DNA from: a bacterium
GTDB taxonomy: Bacteria > ARS69
Assembly (NCBI GenBank): GCA_025774805.1
Contig: JALGZR010000038.1
Coordinates: forward strand, 1 to 37,879
Reading direction: 5' to 3'
DNA length: 37,879 nt
Within the stretch, counting starts at the first letter, position 1. The number at the start of each line of letters is the position of its first letter. A program made the position numbers and the translations under genes. The notes under the pieces are model-generated. The model was not told the DNA's origin. It did no database searches and worked only from the letters and a program-made list of their open reading frames with translations. This document shows, piece by piece, positions 1,995-37,879 of the stretch.

Positions 1995-3122
1995 ATGAGC
2001 GTGAAAGTTAGACCTTACAAGCGTGGAGGCTGGGAAGTGGACATCCGCTGCATGCTTCCTGACGGAACGGAGATTCGAGAGCGCAAGAAGTCTCGTGTCT
2101 CCTCGAAGCAGGGTTCGGTGCGGTGGGGGCGCGCTCGTGAGAGTGAGCTTCTGGTCCAGCAACAGCCGAAGCCGAGAAAGGAGGTGCCTACCCTAGCGCG
2201 TTTCGCATCTCGGTTCCTGGAACATCACTGCCGGGCGAACCGACAAAAGGCCTCCGGGATTCAGCGCAAGGAATCCATCCTTCGCGTTCACCTCAAGCCA
2301 ATGCTCGGCCGCAAGCGCCTGGATGAGATCAGCAACGAGGACGTCCAGCGATTGAAGCGAAAGCTGAAGCGCAAGGCTCCCTCAACGGTCAACAACATCC
2401 TGACCGTGCTGAGCAAGCTCCTCAAGGTGGCGGTCGAGTGGCGTGTCATCGATACACTGCCCTGCACGATCAAGCTCCTCCCCCGCCCCCAGGCGGAGGC
2501 GGACTATTGGGATTTCCACGAGTTCGATCGGCTCGTGGAGAAGGGCACTGACGGCAGCCCGAATGCCAGGCTTGTCGTGCTCCTCGGTGGACAGGCCGGG
2601 CTTCGCATGGGCGAGATGATCGCTTTGCGCTGGGAGGATGTGGACCTTGAGCGGAGACACCTGCGCGTCCAGCAGAACGACTGGCGAGGGCATTTGGACA
2701 CGCCCAAGGGTGGCCGAAGAGGCGTGGTGGACTTGTGCGATCGGTTGGCCTCGGCCCTCCGAGAGCATCAGGCTCACTCTCGCTTACGGTCCAAAGACGG
2801 CCGAGTGCTATGCCGGGAAGACGGCTCCCCGCTGACGGAGCGAATCGTCCGCCGCCTCGTAGAGCGGGCGGAGCATCTCGCTGGACTCCCCCACAAGGGC
2901 GTCCATGCGCTTCGACACACGTTCGGGGCGCACCTTGCGATGCGCGGAGCTCCACAGAAGGCGATTCAGGAACTGATGCGACACGCAGACCTGTCGATGA
3001 CTCAGCGGTACACGCATCTCAGCCCCGCGGCGCGTCAATCGGCGGTCCGACTTCTCGACGAAAAGGCCCCGCCCGTTGGAGACATCGTGGAGACGGGCGA
3101 GGCCGGTTTCGGAAGTCTTTGA
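1995..3122 (+). CDS. Tyrosine recombinase / site-specific integrase
   Basis: The product is 375 residues. Residues about 65-150 form the SAM-like core-binding domain (phage_int_SAM). Residues about 175-355 form the catalytic domain with every expected residue: Arg204 in GLRMGE, Lys238 in TPKGG, His304 and Arg307 in HALRHTFG, His330 in LMRHADL and nucleophile Tyr339 in TQRYTHL. The N-terminal 60 residues resemble an arm-type DNA-binding region. The ATG at 1995 is 8 bases after AAGGAG; an ATG at 1989, overlapping the previous stop as TAATG, is the alternative. The gene ends 16 bases before the CCA of ssrA, the usual place for an integrase of an element inserted at the ssrA 3' end. Confidence 0.93.
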   Translation: MSVKVRPYKRGGWEVDIRCMLPDGTEIRERKKSRVSSKQGSVRWGRARESELLVQQQPKPRKEVPTLARFASRFLEHHCRANRQKASGIQRKESILRVHLKPMLGRKRLDEISNEDVQRLKRKLKRKAPSTVNNILTVLSKLLKVAVEWRVIDTLPCTIKLLPRPQAEADYWDFHEFDRLVEKGTDGSPNARLVVLLGGQAGLRMGEMIALRWEDVDLERRHLRVQQNDWRGHLDTPKGGRRGVVDLCDRLASALREHQAHSRLRSKDGRVLCREDGSPLTERIVRRLVERAEHLAGLPHKGVHALRHTFGAHLAMRGAPQKAIQELMRHADLSMTQRYTHLSPAARQSAVRLLDEKAPPVGDIVETGEAGFGSL

Positions 3123-17672: not shown

Positions 17673-18841
17673 GGACGATTCTCGCCTTCACGCTTCTCGA
17701 CTTCCGCCACATCCGGCGCGACCGGGGCTCGATCTTCTGGATGCTCGTCATGCCCTTCGCGTTCATGGCCTTCTTCGGGACGACGTTTCGGGAGGCCGCC
17801 GACGACACCCCGCAGGACGTGCGCGTCGGACTGGAGGTTCGTGACGAGGACGGGAGCGAGATCTCGCGGGCCGTCGTCGCCTCGTTCGACACGACGCGAT
17901 TCGACATCCTCGCCCCGGTGGATTCGTCCGCCTTGAGCGAGGGAGAGGAGGCGCCCCGGCGTTCCCGCGTCCTGACGATCCCCGCGGGGCTCGAGGACTC
18001 CGTCCTCGCCGGCGGGGAGGCGAAGATCCGGGTGATGCGTCAGGGCGGATCCGGCAGCCGCTTTCTCGCGGCGGAGGCGGGCGTGCTGCGGGCGCTGATC
18101 CGCCTGCACGGGGCGCTCGCCGCCGCGGCCCCGGACGAATCGGGATGGACGGACTCGACGCGGGCGCTCTTTCGAGAGGCCGTTGCGAGTGAGCCCCACG
18201 TGAAGGTGGACGCGCGCTGGACCGCGCGGCCGGCCGTCGCGGGTGGATTCGGGCAGAGCGTCCCCGGAAACCTCATCACGTTCGTGCTGATGTCCACGAT
18301 CCTGCAGGCCGCCGTCCTCCTCGTCTCGGAGAAGACCTCGGGCACGCTGCGACGCGTCGCCACGCACCCGTTGACCGGGTGGCAGATCCTCGCGGGGAAA
18401 GTGCTCTCCCGCTACGTTCTCTCGTTATTGCAGATCGTGCTCCTCCTCGTCGGCGCGCGGTTCCTCTTCGGCTACGTTCCGGGGCCGTCGCTCCCGGCAT
18501 TCGCCCTGGTGAGCGCCGCGTTCGCGCTGTCCACGGTGGGCCTTGGTCTCCTCGCCGGCGCGGTCTTCTCCACGGTCAAGCAGGCCGCGATGGTGGGATG
18601 GATCTCCGCGCTTCTCATGGCGGCGATCGGCGGGGCGTGGTGGCCGCGGGAGCTCGTCGGCGAGCCCCTCCGGTCGTTCGCCTACGCCTTCCCCACCGGC
18701 TGGGCGATGGACGGGCTCCTCATCGTCACGAAATTGGGCGGCGGACTCGCCGACGTCGCTCTGCCTCTCGCGGTCCTGCTGATGATGAGCGTCGGGCTGC
18801 TCACGGCGAGCGCATTGCTTCTGAGGACCGACGAGCGGTAG
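17669..18841 (+). CDS. ABC-2 type permease, subunit 2
   Basis: The product is 390 residues with the same architecture as its upstream neighbour: an N-terminal segment (IFWMLVMPFAFMAFFGTTF), a soluble extracytoplasmic region, then six hydrophobic segments. The coupling motif VSEKTSGTLRRVATHPLTGW is a textbook ABC-2 ExxxGTL element. The ATG at 17669 overlaps the previous stop as ATGA. The three genes 15529-18841 form one translationally coupled exporter operon. The cargo cannot be deduced; the adjacent secreted propeller protein, which starts 24 bases later, may simply be co-transcribed. Confidence 0.9.
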   Translation: MRTILAFTLLDFRHIRRDRGSIFWMLVMPFAFMAFFGTTFREAADDTPQDVRVGLEVRDEDGSEISRAVVASFDTTRFDILAPVDSSALSEGEEAPRRSRVLTIPAGLEDSVLAGGEAKIRVMRQGGSGSRFLAAEAGVLRALIRLHGALAAAAPDESGWTDSTRALFREAVASEPHVKVDARWTARPAVAGGFGQSVPGNLITFVLMSTILQAAVLLVSEKTSGTLRRVATHPLTGWQILAGKVLSRYVLSLLQIVLLLVGARFLFGYVPGPSLPAFALVSAAFALSTVGLGLLAGAVFSTVKQAAMVGWISALLMAAIGGAWWPRELVGEPLRSFAYAFPTGWAMDGLLIVTKLGGGLADVALPLAVLLMMSVGLLTASALLLRTDER

Positions 18842-18864
18842 ACTTCGGTAGCGGGGGTACGAGC

Positions 18865-21321
18865 ATGAAATGGGTCGAAACCGTTTCCACTGCGCTCGTG
18901 TTGAGCGGCCTTCTCGCTCCCCCGGCGGTTCGGGGCCAGTGCATCGACTATGCGGACTACCTGCACGGGGTCGGCGGCATCGATTCGGTGGGACCGGTCA
19001 CGGGCGTGGCGGTATCCGGGGACTACGCCTACCTCGCCGCCGGAACCTGGGGACTTCAAGTCGTGGACGTCTCCAGTCCGGCCTCCCCGGTCATCGTGGG
19101 AGGGGTTTCCACACCGGGAGACGCCCCCCGGGTGGCGGCAGCCGGGGTCTACGCCTACCTCGCCGCCGGGACCTGGGGACTTCGAGTGGTGGACGTCTCC
19201 GACCCGACCTCGCCCGCGTTGCGGGGTAGCGTCCAAGCGCCGGGCTGGGAATACGACGTCAACGTCACGGTGTCGGGGAGCTATGTCTACGTCGCGGCCG
19301 GGACCTCCGGGCTTCACGTGGTGGACGTCTCCGACCCGGACGCCCCCTGGGTCGTGGGAACCGCCGACACCCCGGGTACGGCCCGGGGAGTTGCGGTGTC
19401 GGGAAGTCATGCCTACGTCGCGGACGGGATCCCGGGGATTCAGGTCGTGGATGTGTCCTCCCCTACCTCGCCCGTGATCGTGGGCGGCGTCGAAACACCC
19501 CACGTGGCCAAGAAGATCGCCGTTCAGGGGAGTCTTGCCTATGTCGCGGACGAGTTGCTGGGTCTCAGTGTCGTGAGCGTCTCGAACCCGACAGACCCCA
19601 CGATCGTGGGAAGCGTCGACACGCCGGGATTTGCTCGGGACGTGAGGGTATTGGGAACCCACGCCTACGTCGCCGACTGGGGCGAGGGGCTCAAGGTCGT
19701 GGATGTCTCGGACCCGGCGGCCCCGGCGATCGTGGGCAGCTTCCGACCGAGAGGCCTGGTCTACGGCGTGACGGCATCGGGGAGCCATGCCTACGTCGTG
19801 GGAGCGGTGGGGCTTCACGTCGTGGACATCTCGGAGCCGGCCGCCCCCCCGATCTTCGCGAGCGTCCCCGCACCGGGCAAGGCCGGAGCCGTGGCCGTGT
19901 TCGAGAGCCTCGTCTACCTCGCGGCACTACCCTGGAACCAGGATCCCTCGAACCTCCAGATCATCGATGTGAGCACGCCATCCTTGCCGCAGGCCATTGG
20001 AGAATTGGAAACGCCGGACGCGGCCGTGGCCGTCGCCGTGTCGGGCAGTCACGCCTACCTCGCGGACCGGTATTCCGGTCTCCAGGTAGTGGACGTCTTC
20101 GACCCCACCTCGCCCGTGATCGTGGGCAATGCCGACACACCCGGCTATGCCCGGGGCGTGGCGGTATCGGGAAGTCGCGCGTACGTGGCCGACGGGGGGG
20201 CCGGGCTTCAGGTGGTTGACGTCTCGATACCGACCGCCCCCGCGATCGTGGACAGCGTCCTCACCCCGGGCTCGGCCCGGGATGTCGCGGTGTCCGGGGA
20301 CTACGCCTATGTGGCGGACGGGGGCTCCGGGCTTCACGTGGTCGACGTCTCCGGGCCCGCCGCCACCGCGATCGTGGGGAGCGTCGAAACGCCGGGCTAT
20401 GCCTCGGGGGTCGCCGTGTCGGGAGACCATGCCTACGTCGCCGACGGGGCGTCCGGACTCCTTGTGGTTCACGTTTTCGACCCGGCCTCGCCGACCGTCG
20501 TGGGGAGCATCGACACGCCGGGCTCGGCCTGGGGTGTGAGCGTATCGGGACGCACCGCCTACGTCGCCGACGGAAGCTCCGGTCTCCAGGTGGTCGACGT
20601 GTTCGACCCGACCTCTCCCGTGATCGTGGGCAGCATCGACACCCCCGACACGGCCTTGGCAGTCGCGGTTTCGGACAGCAACGTCTACGTGGCGGACGGA
20701 AGGTCGGGACTTCAGATCCTCCCCGCACAGTGCGATGACCCTCAGCCGGTCCTCCTTTCCGGTTTCCGCGCCGAGGTCCAGGGACGCACCGTTCTTCTCT
20801 CCTGGTTCACTTCATTCGAGCACATGCACGATGGATTCAATGTCTACCGGAGCGGGTTTCTGGAATCCGGTTACGCCAGGCTGAATGATTCCCCGGTCCG
20901 AGGACGCAGCCCCTACTCGTACGTCGATCGCAACGTTCGATCATCCACGACCTACTTCTACCGACTCGGGGCCGTGGATCTCCGAGGACATGAAGTCCTG
21001 CACCCGCCCACTTCCGTGACGACCCTCGACTGGGGACCGCGAACGGCATTGAGTCTCGCCTCTCCCAGTCCGTTCCGACGGGAGACGTTGCTCACCCTCA
21101 CGCTGGCGGCGCCGGCGGCGGTGAGGCTCGACATCTACGATGTTCGGGGGCGCCTCGTTCGAAGACTCGTCCACGAGACGCTTCCCGAGGGTGACCACTC
21201 CGCGGCCTGGGATGGCCGGGATGACCTCGGAAGTCGCGTGGGAGCCGGCACGTACTTCATCCGGCTGGAAGCGGGAGAGTCGACCGGGACGACGAAGGTC
21301 GTCTTCCTGGGTTCCCGCTAA
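18865..21321 (+). CDS. Secreted LVIVD-repeat beta-propeller protein with FlgD-like C-terminal sorting domain
   Basis: The product is 818 residues. An N-terminal signal peptide (VSTALVLSGLLAPPAVRG, then QC) is followed by 14 LVIVD repeats of about 42 residues. The consensus is GVAVSGDYAYVADGxSGLQV, then VDVSDPTSPVIVGSVDTPG. Blades 7 and 8 are irregular and blade 14 is cut short. Around residues 635-720 is a fibronectin-III-like domain (VLLSWFTSFEHMHDGFNVYR). The last 80 residues match the FlgD Ig-like/type IX sorting-type domain (VRLDIYDVRGRLVRRLV, then WDGRDDLGSRVGAGTYFIRL). It is probably exported and surface-bound; ligand and function are unknown. The ATG at 18865 lies 24 bases after the permease stop with GGGGGT upstream. 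The stop overlaps that of tyrA tail to tail. Confidence 0.88.
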   Translation: MKWVETVSTALVLSGLLAPPAVRGQCIDYADYLHGVGGIDSVGPVTGVAVSGDYAYLAAGTWGLQVVDVSSPASPVIVGGVSTPGDAPRVAAAGVYAYLAAGTWGLRVVDVSDPTSPALRGSVQAPGWEYDVNVTVSGSYVYVAAGTSGLHVVDVSDPDAPWVVGTADTPGTARGVAVSGSHAYVADGIPGIQVVDVSSPTSPVIVGGVETPHVAKKIAVQGSLAYVADELLGLSVVSVSNPTDPTIVGSVDTPGFARDVRVLGTHAYVADWGEGLKVVDVSDPAAPAIVGSFRPRGLVYGVTASGSHAYVVGAVGLHVVDISEPAAPPIFASVPAPGKAGAVAVFESLVYLAALPWNQDPSNLQIIDVSTPSLPQAIGELETPDAAVAVAVSGSHAYLADRYSGLQVVDVFDPTSPVIVGNADTPGYARGVAVSGSRAYVADGGAGLQVVDVSIPTAPAIVDSVLTPGSARDVAVSGDYAYVADGGSGLHVVDVSGPAATAIVGSVETPGYASGVAVSGDHAYVADGASGLLVVHVFDPASPTVVGSIDTPGSAWGVSVSGRTAYVADGSSGLQVVDVFDPTSPVIVGSIDTPDTALAVAVSDSNVYVADGRSGLQILPAQCDDPQPVLLSGFRAEVQGRTVLLSWFTSFEHMHDGFNVYRSGFLESGYARLNDSPVRGRSPYSYVDRNVRSSTTYFYRLGAVDLRGHEVLHPPTSVTTLDWGPRTALSLASPSPFRRETLLTLTLAAPAAVRLDIYDVRGRLVRRLVHETLPEGDHSAAWDGRDDLGSRVGAGTYFIRLEAGESTGTTKVVFLGSR
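18990..20720 (+). repeat. Tandem coding repeats of about 126 bases (LVIVD blades)
   Basis: Fourteen in-frame units of roughly 120-130 bases recur, each with variants of GGCGTGGCGGTATCGGGAAG, GCCTACGTCGCGGACGG and GTGGACGTCTCCGACCC. Identity is highest among the later units (about 20040-20700), which suggests recent expansion there. Such arrays can change copy number by recombination. Confidence 0.8.
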
Positions 21322-32588: not shown

Positions 32589-33611
32589 TCAGCCCGCCGC
32601 GAGGACGAAGGCCCCCAAGAGGATCCCTCCGGCCAGGACGAGGGTTGCCAGGGACGCCCGGTCCGGGCCTTTCTCGCCCCGCTCGAGCAGGTCCCGGGGC
32701 AGGGCCCGGAAGGGGGGCACTCGGTCGGGGCCGGGCGGGCGGCCGGCCTCCTCCCAGGCCGCCAGGTAGAGCGCCGCGAGGTCCGAGATCGCCCGTTCCA
32801 CCTGCGCCTCGGCCACCCCGCGGGTCCCCTGCCAGAGAAGCCCGTAGTAGCGATCGCCGTGGTCCGGATCGGCCGTCGAGGCCGCGGTGTCGGCCGCCAG
32901 GATTTCCTCGATCCCCTCGTAGGCCGCGGCGATCCAGTCGAAGCAGGCCTCGAGAGGACCCTCCTCCGGTCGCTGCGGGGTCGGGCACGGCCGGAGACTC
33001 GCGGGGTCGAAGTGGCGGTTCATCAGGTGCACCTCGAACCGGAGGTGGACGCCACGATTGCCCGTCCTCTGACCGTCGTAGTTCAGCGTGCAGTGCAGTG
33101 GCTGGTGCGTGTCCGCGACGTAGTGACCGAGGTCGGCGGCCCAGGCTACGGCGGATCCCCAGTCGCCCAGCTCGAGCGATCGGACGACCATGCGGTAGCA
33201 CTCCTCGATCGCCCAGGGTGCGACGCCCCAGTGCCTCCCCGAGCTGTCTCCGAGACGGCCCGCGAGCTTTTCCCGATCGCGGGGCACCCGATCGAAGGGG
33301 GGCGTGTCGTACAGGTCGATGTCGATGTAGTGCCGCGGCGGCTCCTCGGACGAGCGGCCCTTTCGATGGTCGGCGTCACCGGCGTGAGCGCCCAGGGAAG
33401 ATGCGAGGGACGCCCAGGCGGTGCGGGCGGGGTCCGGAAGGCAGTCCACCGCACGCCGGTTGACGATGTCGTGGATGCGCTCTCCCCAGGCCCCGGCGAT
33501 CGAAGGGAGGGCGAGCCCCGTGATCCCCATGGCAAGGCCGGCGAGAGCGAGTCGTCGCCGGCCGCCGGAGCGGGGACCACCGTCACCCGCGCGCGATCTG
33601 GGGAAGGTCAC
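32589..33611 (-). CDS. Exported zinc-dependent S1/P1 nuclease or phospholipase C superfamily protein
   Basis: The product is 340 residues. The twin Arg-rich start and hydrophobic run (LALAGLAMGITGLALPSIAG) form a signal peptide ending AGA, leaving Trp42 near the mature N-terminus, as the superfamily requires. The trinuclear zinc pattern is visible: Trp42, His47, Asp79 or Asp81, His94 (RHYIDID), His163 and Asp167 (LGHYVADTHQPLHC), His173, and His189 with Glu193. HQPLH and the GN that follows are shared with S1/P1 nucleases. A C-terminal hydrophobic segment (ASLATLVLAGGILLGAFVLA) may anchor it. Nuclease against phospholipase C cannot be decided. It lies 4 bases downstream of the tetrahaem metallophosphatase gene. 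Confidence 0.8.
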   Translation of the reverse strand: MTFPRSRAGDGGPRSGGRRRLALAGLAMGITGLALPSIAGAWGERIHDIVNRRAVDCLPDPARTAWASLASSLGAHAGDADHRKGRSSEEPPRHYIDIDLYDTPPFDRVPRDREKLAGRLGDSSGRHWGVAPWAIEECYRMVVRSLELGDWGSAVAWAADLGHYVADTHQPLHCTLNYDGQRTGNRGVHLRFEVHLMNRHFDPASLRPCPTPQRPEEGPLEACFDWIAAAYEGIEEILAADTAASTADPDHGDRYYGLLWQGTRGVAEAQVERAISDLAALYLAAWEEAGRPPGPDRVPPFRALPRDLLERGEKGPDRASLATLVLAGGILLGAFVLAAG

Positions 33612-33615
33612 CGAC

Positions 33616-34998
33616 TCAGTGCACCCCGTACTCGTAGTAGGTCTCGAAGTCGAAGTCGGGGCTGTTCTCCGAATCGTGGCACTTCCGGCACAGCTCCTCC
33701 CCGATGGTCACGTAGGACCCGTCCCGCGCGTGCTGCAGACCACTTCCGTGACACTCCTCGCACTGTACGTTCCAGACCTCCGGGGCGACGTTCACGTCGT
33801 CGACGAAGTGCTTGTCATCGATCCCGGTGACGTGGCAGCCGATGCAGTCCGGGTTGTCCCAAGCGTCGGCCTCCGCCAAGGTCGCGAACGCGGTGGCGTG
33901 CGGTGTCTCCATCCACGATTCGTAGACCGGCTCGTGGCACGCCTTGCACGACTCCGCCCCGAAGACCCCGCCTCGATCCTGGACCTTCGCGGTCTTCTCT
34001 TGCTGACGCGCCGCTTCCCGCTCACGCTGGGCGGCGAGCTGCTTCTGCCGTCGCTCCTCCTTTTCCCGTCGATCGGCCTCCTGGGCCATCAGAGTGATCT
34101 CGGCGACTTCCGGCCCCTTGGCCATGAGACGGATCGCGTCGCCCTCGTGGCGGAGAATCTCGCCGCCCTCCGGCCCCAGGGTCAGATCCAGGATCCCGAA
34201 CCGGTCGGACTTGCTCCCGGCCATGGCGACGAGCGTCCCGCCGATCTCCTTGGGCTGGGCCTGGATCGCCGGGTAGTGCCCCACCACCAGCACGTCGACG
34301 TCCAGATCCTCGGCGAGGAACTCAGAGGTCTCGATGCCGGTGTGAGAGAGAAGCACGACGAGATCCGCCTGCTCCCGCACTTCGGGCAAGACCTTCGACG
34401 TGTACTCGGTCGGATCCCCGATTTCGAGCTTCGAATCGAGCTTCGTTTCCACCTGGGCGATGATGTGTCGCTCGGGAGAGATCACTCCGACGAAGCCGAC
34501 CCTCACCCCGTCGACCTCTCGCACGACGTAGGGATCGAAGATCGGCTCTTTCGTCTTGTGATCCACGACGTTGGCCGAGATCAGGGGCAAGTCGTACTTC
34601 TCGGCCATCTCCTCGAGGAATGGCCGTCCGAACGCGAGGTCCATTTCCCCGACGGCGATCGCGTCGTAGTCCATCATCCCCATCACGCGAGCCAGTTCCT
34701 CGGCCTTCAGCCGCGTGTCGGAAATCGTCGCCCGCTGAGCGGGGCGGTACTCGAAGATGTCCCCCGCACTGCACTTCAGAACCCGGGGGTGTATCTTTTC
34801 GAACTCCTTGATCTCGCCGGCCCGCCGGGCCAGCCCGCCCTTGTCCTTCGACTTTCACCCGCAGGGGTGGAGCTCGGACCTCTCGTCGGACGAGTAGATC
34901 AGGAAGACATTGCGACCGTCCGGGTCGGCCTGATCGGCGCCGAGACCGAACAGGAGACCGAGGAGAGCCAGCAGCGTGGTGGGAAGGATCCTGCGCAT
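33616..34998 (-). CDS. Periplasmic 5'-nucleotidase-like metallophosphatase fused to tetrahaem cytochrome c, probable selenoprotein (in-frame TGA)
   Basis: Read with one TGA as selenocysteine, the frame from the ATG at 34998 gives 460 residues. A signal peptide (RRILPTTLLALLGLLFGLG) is followed by a metallophosphatase domain (about 30-275) of the UshA/5'-nucleotidase type: LIYSSDERSELHPCG-U48, KDKGGLARRAG, YDAIAVGEMDLAFG, ISANVV, VVLLSHTG, VVGHYPA. A coiled coil (300-338) comes next. Four haem motifs follow: CKACH (351), CIGCH (385), CEECH (413), CRKCH (437). The TGA at 34857-34855 falls where related proteins, as I recall the family, have the second Cys of PCGC, before the conserved GGLARRA. 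The frame is open and protein-like on both sides, so a dead gene is unlikely. GGAAAGAG precedes the ATG. If Sec is not made, translation would end at 47 residues. Confidence 0.8.
34816..34834 (-). promoter_or_regulatory. Candidate bacterial SECIS hairpin
   Basis: Beginning 20 bases after the TGA, GCTGGCCC pairs with GGGCCGGC (8 pairs, one G-U) around the apical loop GGC. The loop's first G is 29 bases after the TGA. Bacterial SECIS elements are hairpins just downstream of the UGA with a G in the first two loop positions, so position and loop fit. The stretch also encodes the conserved GLARRAG residues and is GC-rich, so a chance hairpin is possible. Confidence 0.5.
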
Positions 34999-35317: not shown

Positions 35318-37879
35318 TCATCTCAACAGCAGGACCTTTCGCGTGGCCGTCTCGGTCCCGCTCTCGAGGCGGTAGAAGTAGACCCCCGACGAGAGCTTGT
35401 GTCCCTCGTGATCCCGCCCGTCCCAGACCACCCGGTTCTGGCCGGCCTTCGCCGGCCCGTTCACCAGAGTCCGGATCAGACGACCGGTCACGTCGAAGAT
35501 CCGGAGCAGCACGCGTCCCTCCGCCGGCAGCGTGTAGCGGATCGTCGTTCCGCCGGCGAACGGGTTGGGCGCGTTCTGGGCCAGCGAGAACGAGAACACC
35601 GGGCTCTGCGCGGGATCGACCCCGACCTGATACGGCATCAACTCCCCGTAGACCGACGGACGGTATTGGCTCCCGGCGTAGGTCGCCCACTCGTAGGCCG
35701 CCGGGGTGGACGCCCCGGAGAAGTCGATGATGTTCACGGTCTGATCGTACGAGGCGAACGCCACGTCGACGTCTCCGTCGTTGTCGATGTCACCCGCCGC
35801 CGCGGTGGAATAGATTCCCGCGTTCGTGGGAATCGGCAGCCCCAACACCGGGGAGGCGTCGTGGTGGAATCCGTAGAAGTACCCATTGCGGTGACCGACC
35901 AGGATCTCGAAGTCGGAGTCGCCGTCCACGTCCACCACGATCGGGCTCGCGCTCATCGGAGCGCCGCCGTCGATCGACGCGAACAGTCCGCCCGCGTTCA
36001 GGAATCCTGACCCGTCGTGATTGAAGGCGTAGAGGTGTCCGTCGAAGCAGGAGACCACGATCTCCAGCTCCGGATCCCCGTCGAGGTTGCAGAGCGCCGG
36101 AATGGAGCGGATGTCGCCCGGCAGGGTCGCCAGGATCCCGTTCCCGCCCGTTCCGTAGTCGCCCCCGTTGTGGTTGTACGCGTAGAGGTTGCCGTCGTTG
36201 TTTCCGACGACGATCTCCAGCGTTCCGTCGTTGTCGAGGTCTCCGAGCGCCGGTGCCGACTGGAACAGGTCGCCGGCCACCCTCGGGAAGCCGGGCATGT
36301 CGTTCCCGTCGGGGTCGCTGACGTAGATCTCGTTGTTGAAGCTCGTGAAGACGATCTCGCGGGTCGTATCGTTCGCGAGATCCGCGACCCCGATCGCCCC
36401 CCAGATGCGGGCGCTCGTGTTCCCCGGCGGGGCGGTGTAGAGAAGCCCCAAGGAGTCGGCGCCGGCCAGGGGGGTCCCGTCGTGGTTGAACGCGTACAGG
36501 CCTCCCATGTCGGTGCCGAAGATGAACTCCAGCTCGTTGTCTTTGTCCACGTCGGCCAGTGCCGCGGCCGATCGCATCATGTAGTCCGATCCGAAGACGA
36601 AGAGATCGAGAAAGACGATGTCGTCGTTGTACACCGGCTGCCCGTCGTGATGGACGACGTAGAACTTCGAGTCCATCGATCCGAAGAAGATCTCCTGGTC
36701 CCCATCGCTGTCGATGTCGACCGCGCTGGCGGCCGCCCAGATCTCGTTCCCGGTCGCGATCGGGAACCCGTCGAGTTGTGAGGCGTCGTAGTCCCACCCG
36801 TACATGCTGTGGTCCTTGGAACCGACGTAGATCTCGCCCGTTCCGTTCCCGTCCGCATCCACCATCAGGATGGAGGGGAACACGTTGTTGCCCGCGTACT
36901 GCGGCCAGCCCGCGACCTGCTGCAACGTGGTCCAGGCCATCAGCTCCGCGGAGGCGGGGCCCTCGTTCCCCGAGGAATCGACCGCCGCGACCTTGTAGTA
37001 GAACTGGGACCCGATGGCGAGCCCCCCGTCCGTGAACCGGGTTCCGGTCCGCAGAAGCTCGAAGTTCTGCCGCTCGAAGCCGGTCCCGCTGGAGTCGCTC
37101 CGGTACACGATGTACCCGGCCAGGTCCGACTCGACGTTCGGCGACCAGAACAGGTCGATCATGTCGGAGCTCGAGAGGAAACGCAGGCTCTCGGGAGTCG
37201 CCGGGGCCACGAAGTCGATCGTCTTCGGCCACGTGCGACCCATGTCGTCGGTCAGGACGAGGTCGAACTCCACGGCGGACGAGTCGTCCAGGGTCAGCAC
37301 GTAACCGTCGGTCCCCGACGTCTCCATCAGGCTCGCGATGTCGCCGTAGGAGTCGCCGGAGTCGATGAACGTGATTCCCGTCGTCGCGGACGCCGATCCC
37401 GTCACCCCTCCCGCCTCGCCGGAGCCCCGGTTGAGCACCTTCGGAGTGATCCGTACCGTCTCTCCCACCTCCGCCACCCCGTCACCGTCACCCGACACCG
37501 GCGGATTGTTCGTGTCGTCCAGCGCGAAGACGTACGCCTCCAACGACGGAGCCGCGAACACCACCGGTACCTCCGCCGTCCACGGACCGCCCGACGTCGA
37601 GGTGTACTCCAGATCCACGTACGCGATCCGCTCGTCCTGAGCGGTGCTCGCCACGTCGAACACCACCGTCGCGTCTCCCGTGCCCGACGGTGGAACGTCC
37701 CCGATGGAGTCCGTGGTGACGCTCAGCGAGAGCACGGTGCTGTCGGCCATCGCGAACCCGAATCCGTCCACGACGTCGTCGAGGTGAGTCATCCCCGTGA
37801 AGGTCAGCGAGTCCTCTCCCGCGGAGATCAACACCGCGTCGACCCCGCTCTCCATCTCCAGAGAGTGGCTTCCCCGGAA
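35318..37879 (-). CDS. Secreted FG-GAP/FN3 surface protein with FlgD-like C-terminal sorting domain (5' end beyond window)
   Basis: At least 853 codons; the frame is open to the right edge, so the true start lies outside. From the N-terminal side: Ig-like strands with a DTNNPPVSGDGDGVAEVGET stretch typical of surface proteins, a fibronectin-III domain (SLRFLSSSDMIDLFWSPNVE, DLAGYIVYRSD), and seven or more FG-GAP/VCBS propeller blades with calcium-type Asp loops (VDADGNGTGEIYVGS, VDIDSDGDQEIFFGS, LDNDGTLEIVVGNNDGNLYA, VDVDGDSDFEILVGHRNGYF). The C-terminal 90 residues (AQNAPNPFAGGTTIRYTLPA, VLLRIFDVTGRLIRTLVNG, WDGRDHEGHKLSSGVYFYRL) form the FlgD/type IX sorting-like domain. It is very likely exported and attached to the surface; substrate is unknown. 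It shares its C-terminal domain type with the LVIVD protein at 18865. Confidence 0.88.
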   Translation of the reverse strand, partial: FRGSHSLEMESGVDAVLISAGEDSLTFTGMTHLDDVVDGFGFAMADSTVLSLSVTTDSIGDVPPSGTGDATVVFDVASTAQDERIAYVDLEYTSTSGGPWTAEVPVVFAAPSLEAYVFALDDTNNPPVSGDGDGVAEVGETVRITPKVLNRGSGEAGGVTGSASATTGITFIDSGDSYGDIASLMETSGTDGYVLTLDDSSAVEFDLVLTDDMGRTWPKTIDFVAPATPESLRFLSSSDMIDLFWSPNVESDLAGYIVYRSDSSGTGFERQNFELLRTGTRFTDGGLAIGSQFYYKVAAVDSSGNEGPASAELMAWTTLQQVAGWPQYAGNNVFPSILMVDADGNGTGEIYVGSKDHSMYGWDYDASQLDGFPIATGNEIWAAASAVDIDSDGDQEIFFGSMDSKFYVVHHDGQPVYNDDIVFLDLFVFGSDYMMRSAAALADVDKDNELEFIFGTDMGGLYAFNHDGTPLAGADSLGLLYTAPPGNTSARIWGAIGVADLANDTTREIVFTSFNNEIYVSDPDGNDMPGFPRVAGDLFQSAPALGDLDNDGTLEIVVGNNDGNLYAYNHNGGDYGTGGNGILATLPGDIRSIPALCNLDGDPELEIVVSCFDGHLYAFNHDGSGFLNAGGLFASIDGGAPMSASPIVVDVDGDSDFEILVGHRNGYFYGFHHDASPVLGLPIPTNAGIYSTAAAGDIDNDGDVDVAFASYDQTVNIIDFSGASTPAAYEWATYAGSQYRPSVYGELMPYQVGVDPAQSPVFSFSLAQNAPNPFAGGTTIRYTLPAEGRVLLRIFDVTGRLIRTLVNGPAKAGQNRVVWDGRDHEGHKLSSGVYFYRLESGTETATRKVLLLR

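Follow-up and report, generated by a model that had tools for sequence, protein, structure and literature searches.

A 460-codon gene in the window (the whole stretch of DNA analysed, 37,879 nucleotides in length) very probably encodes a periplasmic selenoprotein of the already known PCGU family, in which UGA at codon 48 specifies selenocysteine (Sec) and which most likely acts as an oxidoreductase; this joint explanation draws on comparison of sequences. The gene starts with an ATG at 34998 on the reverse strand and has a sole internal stop, the TGA at 34857–34855, the frame being otherwise open (Table 1). An earlier preliminary description of this DNA gave the coordinates, the TGA at codon 48, the open frame through to four CxxCH motifs and the length of 460 codons exactly.

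The product is a secreted (periplasmic) protein containing, in order, a signal peptide, an UshA/5′-nucleotidase-like domain, a helical linker and a tetrahaem cytochrome c554-like domain. The PCGU motif occupies codons 45–48 within the sequence HPCG-U-KSKDKGGLARR, and the haem-binding motifs CKACH, CIGCH, CEECH and CRKCH lie at codons 351–355, 385–389, 413–417 and 437–441, respectively. The predicted structure model of the 460-codon product (mean pLDDT 84) matches structures of 2′,3′-cyclic-nucleotide phosphodiesterases/5′-nucleotidases, followed by a long helix and then the cytochrome part, which is akin to cytochrome c554 (PF13435; 1bvb).

Table 1. Positions of the Sec gene, its features and its paralogue; coordinates are those of the window unless a locus is named.
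Feature	Coordinates	Strand	Comment
UshA-like tetrahaem gene, 460 codons	33616..34998	-	Read through TGA at codon 48
In-frame TGA, codon 48, predicted Sec in PCGU	34855..34857	-	Codons of homologues and Sec machinery
Bacterial SECIS-type hairpin	34816..34834	-	8-bp stem; conservation and covariation
Four haem-binding CxxCH motifs (stretch)	33676..33948	-	Invariant in 53 aligned homologues
Terminal TGA (codon 461)	33616..33618	-	True stop, same place in orthologues
Second TGA paralogue, same genome	L018 (G000:C130) 991-2280; TGA 2179-2181	-	PCGUSRNRRGGLARR

The TGA at codon 48 almost certainly encodes selenocysteine, as judged from its distribution among homologues. Homologous loci from other genomes, 80 in all, have TGA (45 loci) or a Cys codon (35 loci) and nothing else at this position, and the predicted Sec takes the place of a Cys in PCGC, as the preliminary description had proposed. 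Each of the five phylum genomes examined carries TGA copies of the gene, and four of them, including the source genome, have two TGA paralogues. A tree of 85 proteins requires four Sec/Cys changes compared to 27 when the labels are shuffled; long branches are involved in several of the joins at which these changes fall. Residues 29–47, upstream of the TGA, are 12–14/19 identical in three orthologues and are conserved like the remainder of the protein. Because these residues are conserved and the TGA recurs both in the phylum and in 45 of the 80 loci, its presence at codon 48 is not a matter of chance. Were the TGA instead an error of sequencing or a stop left by decay, the only product would be that of a downstream open reading frame (GTG at 34686, 356 aa). 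This would fit the list of open reading frames (translation table 11), which starts the downstream frame at 34686; it is nevertheless extremely improbable given the many independent assemblies in which the TGA is found, its occurrence throughout the phylum genomes, the conservation of the residues before it, and a frame with no other lesion.

Reading of the TGA as another amino acid (e.g. Trp) through a changed code or a suppressor is likewise barely credible. The frame would be open under any reassignment of TGA, but the gene itself ends at a TGA, as do four of the six other window genes checked, and since TGA still terminates genes in the window there is no genome-wide change of code. Moreover, homologues have Cys and never Trp at codon 48, the codon is followed by a conserved hairpin, and the genome encodes Sec machinery.

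The source genome contains matches to selA (535.7 bits) and selB (382.9 bits) as well as a tRNA-Sec with anticodon UCA (72.3 bits). The Sec machinery is borne out in these three components; selD was sought twice in the source draft genome (96% complete) and not found. All four relatives contain selD (loci L051, L052, L053 and L054), in each case with an in-frame TGA such that SelD is itself a selenoprotein. The genomic Sec machinery expected of a bacterial selenoprotein is in place, with selD missing from the draft but present in 4/4 relatives.

The hairpin noted in the preliminary description is present and has the organization found in bacterial selenoproteins, lying just 3′ of the UGA with a loop that begins with GG. 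The stem pairs 34834–34827 with 34823–34816 and the GGC loop (34826–34824) starts 29 nt past the UGA; in TGA homologues the loop is GGC or GGA at the same distance. A plain energy test of the region is weak (z −1.68 for 60 nt; across members, mean z −0.67 for TGA versus −0.12 for Cys, p 0.013), and a synonymous-recoding test with a fixed stem was therefore used. The complete eight-pair stem is formed by 30 of 50 TGA homologues compared to 2.0 expected, and by 0 of 23 Cys homologues, a comparison confined to the 23 of 35 that could be placed and in which the amino acids differ from those of TGA members. Among 26 distinct sequences there are 14 doubly changed cells versus 3.1 in shuffles, and the covariation is 0.302 versus at most 0.075 in slid controls, these hairpin statistics being drawn from sequences that are related to each other. 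An Rfam scan of the TGA region yielded chance matches only. Judged by these alignments, the stem is conserved among TGA homologues much more strongly than the encoded amino acids demand, and its changes include compensatory ones. SelB and tRNA-Sec would decode the codon-48 UGA as Sec, aided by this hairpin just downstream, whose part is supported by its conservation.

The predicted product adds one well-supported member to a selenoprotein family that is already catalogued; it does not represent a new kind of protein. It matches the NCBIfam model NF041198 (UshA_like_PCGU, 'UshA-like (seleno)protein') with 300.4 bits, passing the curated cut-off of 275, and a search of the genome with the profile gives 292.5 bits. 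The Sec/Cys of the PCG[U/C] motif is present, and profile positions 354–519 match the cytochrome part, such that the C-terminal multihaem region, like the nucleotidase-like part, is contained in the model. There is no essential difference from the family, the source protein coming from a lineage with few sequenced genomes. The Global Ocean Sampling study (PMC2398784) had reported the family as a UshA-like selenoprotein (COG0737) with a CxU motif, and it appears in the selenoprotein tables of PMC9312934 and PMC13188914, these listings dating from 2008, 2022 and 2026. The preliminary description had regarded the gene as a probable new selenoprotein with no described counterpart; this novelty fails because NF041198 includes the cytochrome part and the family has been in print since 2008. 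Neither the selenoprotein nor the fusion of nucleotidase-like and haem domains is new. No function is described for the UshA-like PCGU family in the literature searched.

Two other groups share some of these features. NF049981 (UshA_like_Sel_2, UshA-like selenoprotein family 2) also represents UshA-like selenoproteins, but the product scores 44 bits, below the cut-off of 140, and the model is shorter (262 positions) with a listed motif of CxxU. ExtKL (NF040886) and MccSep are likewise Sec-containing c-type multihaem cytochromes; they differ in that the match is weak and restricted to the cytochrome part, with no UshA-like part matched. ExtKL and TIGR04315 are catalogued as multihaem cytochrome selenoproteins in PMC13188914, and structures have been solved for the protein named 'Multiheme cytochrome c selenoprotein (MccSep)' (PDB 9wt8), so that the placement of Sec beside c-type haems, put forward earlier as new chemistry, was already on record.

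The fold of residues ~29–290 is common to the 5′-nucleotidases UshA, CD73 and YfkN and to SoxB. These enzymes have an intact dinuclear metal site and, to our knowledge, lack both the Cys-Gly-Sec/Cys pair and the haems. When the source protein is aligned to 5′-nucleotidase, D-x-H corresponds to DER, GNHE to GEMD, with replacement of the Asn-His, and GHxH to GHYP; the conserved dinuclear ligands of calcineurin-like metallophosphatases (DxH, GD, GNH, H and GHxH) are not found as a set. Its earlier naming as a metallophosphatase holds for the fold and not for the metal ligands, which are unconserved in the family: among 53 homologues the ligand columns retain D38 in 37, D80 in 29, H219 in 31 and H241 in 19. 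In contrast, Cys46, Sec/Cys48, the four CxxCH motifs, H367 and H423 are invariant in this set and H460 is nearly so. With the ligands variable and the Cys-Gly-Sec/Cys pair and haems invariant, selection appears to maintain the redox parts rather than the phosphoesterase site, and the likeliest role is therefore that of a periplasmic redox enzyme and not a phosphatase.

An active metal-dependent phosphoesterase or a SoxB-like thiosulfohydrolase, in which Sec/Cys helps to bind metal or a sulfur substrate and the haems are accessory, is unlikely. The domain is nucleotidase/SoxB-like and the source protein, in common with some other members, retains D38, D80, H219 and H241, so that members of this type may have residual metal binding. 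However, ligands are missing from many members, including the Sec paralogue of the same genome in which several have been lost, GNHE is GEMD here, and every member retains both the Cys-Gly-Sec/Cys pair and the haems.

For the favoured oxidoreductase, we infer a redox function on the nucleotidase scaffold, as well as the class of substrate and which way the electrons flow. The Cys-Gly-Sec pair sits in the loop that follows the first metal-ligand motif in 5′-nucleotidases, on a nucleotidase-type scaffold joined through the long helix to the tetrahaem domain. The substrate with which the pair reacts would probably be a thiol or a sulfur compound, and electrons would pass through the haems to, or arrive from, a partner in the periplasm or the membrane. 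The more specific proposal, that in this family a nucleotidase scaffold, deprived of its metal centre, has been repurposed as a haem-wired selenol/thiol oxidoreductase acting on a sulfur (or selenium) compound of the periplasm, has about an even chance of being correct. Five Eiseniibacteriota-type loci (L066, L067, L068, L069 and L072) have the gene order DUF1573 – rhodanese – MauE/DoxX – PCGU cytochrome – Fer4_5 ferredoxin, a thiol/sulfur redox setting that suggests a sulfur-type substrate. Comparison between lineages found no conserved gene neighbourhood, other lineages having other neighbours, and the link to sulfur is therefore local evidence only.

Directly downstream of the Sec gene in the window is a leftwards-transcribed 340-aa gene (32589–33611, reverse strand) with a weak match to S1/P1 nuclease (21.7 against a cut-off of 29.5), and this S1/P1-like gene adjoins the Sec gene also in close relatives (loci L026, L027, L064 and L065). 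Elsewhere the window encodes two large repeat proteins, one with LVIVD repeats (18379–21321, forward strand) and one with FG-GAP repeats (35318–37855, reverse strand); both have a FlgD_ig-type C-terminal domain and their C-termini are 44% alike over 93 aa.

The second TGA paralogue falls below the NF041198 cut-off (250.8 versus 275 bits) and has lost most of its phosphoesterase ligands; two TGA copies are also present in three of the four relatives. On the same contig a cobalamin riboswitch (RF00174, 104.8 bits; L018 2765–2924, forward strand) lies upstream of a gene that diverges from the Sec paralogue and whose translation resembles a putative TonB-dependent receptor.

These findings open no new class of selenoproteins. 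They add to a functionally uncharacterised family a lineage with few genomes, in which four of five genomes have two Sec paralogues each, and the UshA-like PCGU family gains an insertion hairpin supported by covariation, together with evidence that selection maintains something other than its phosphoesterase site.
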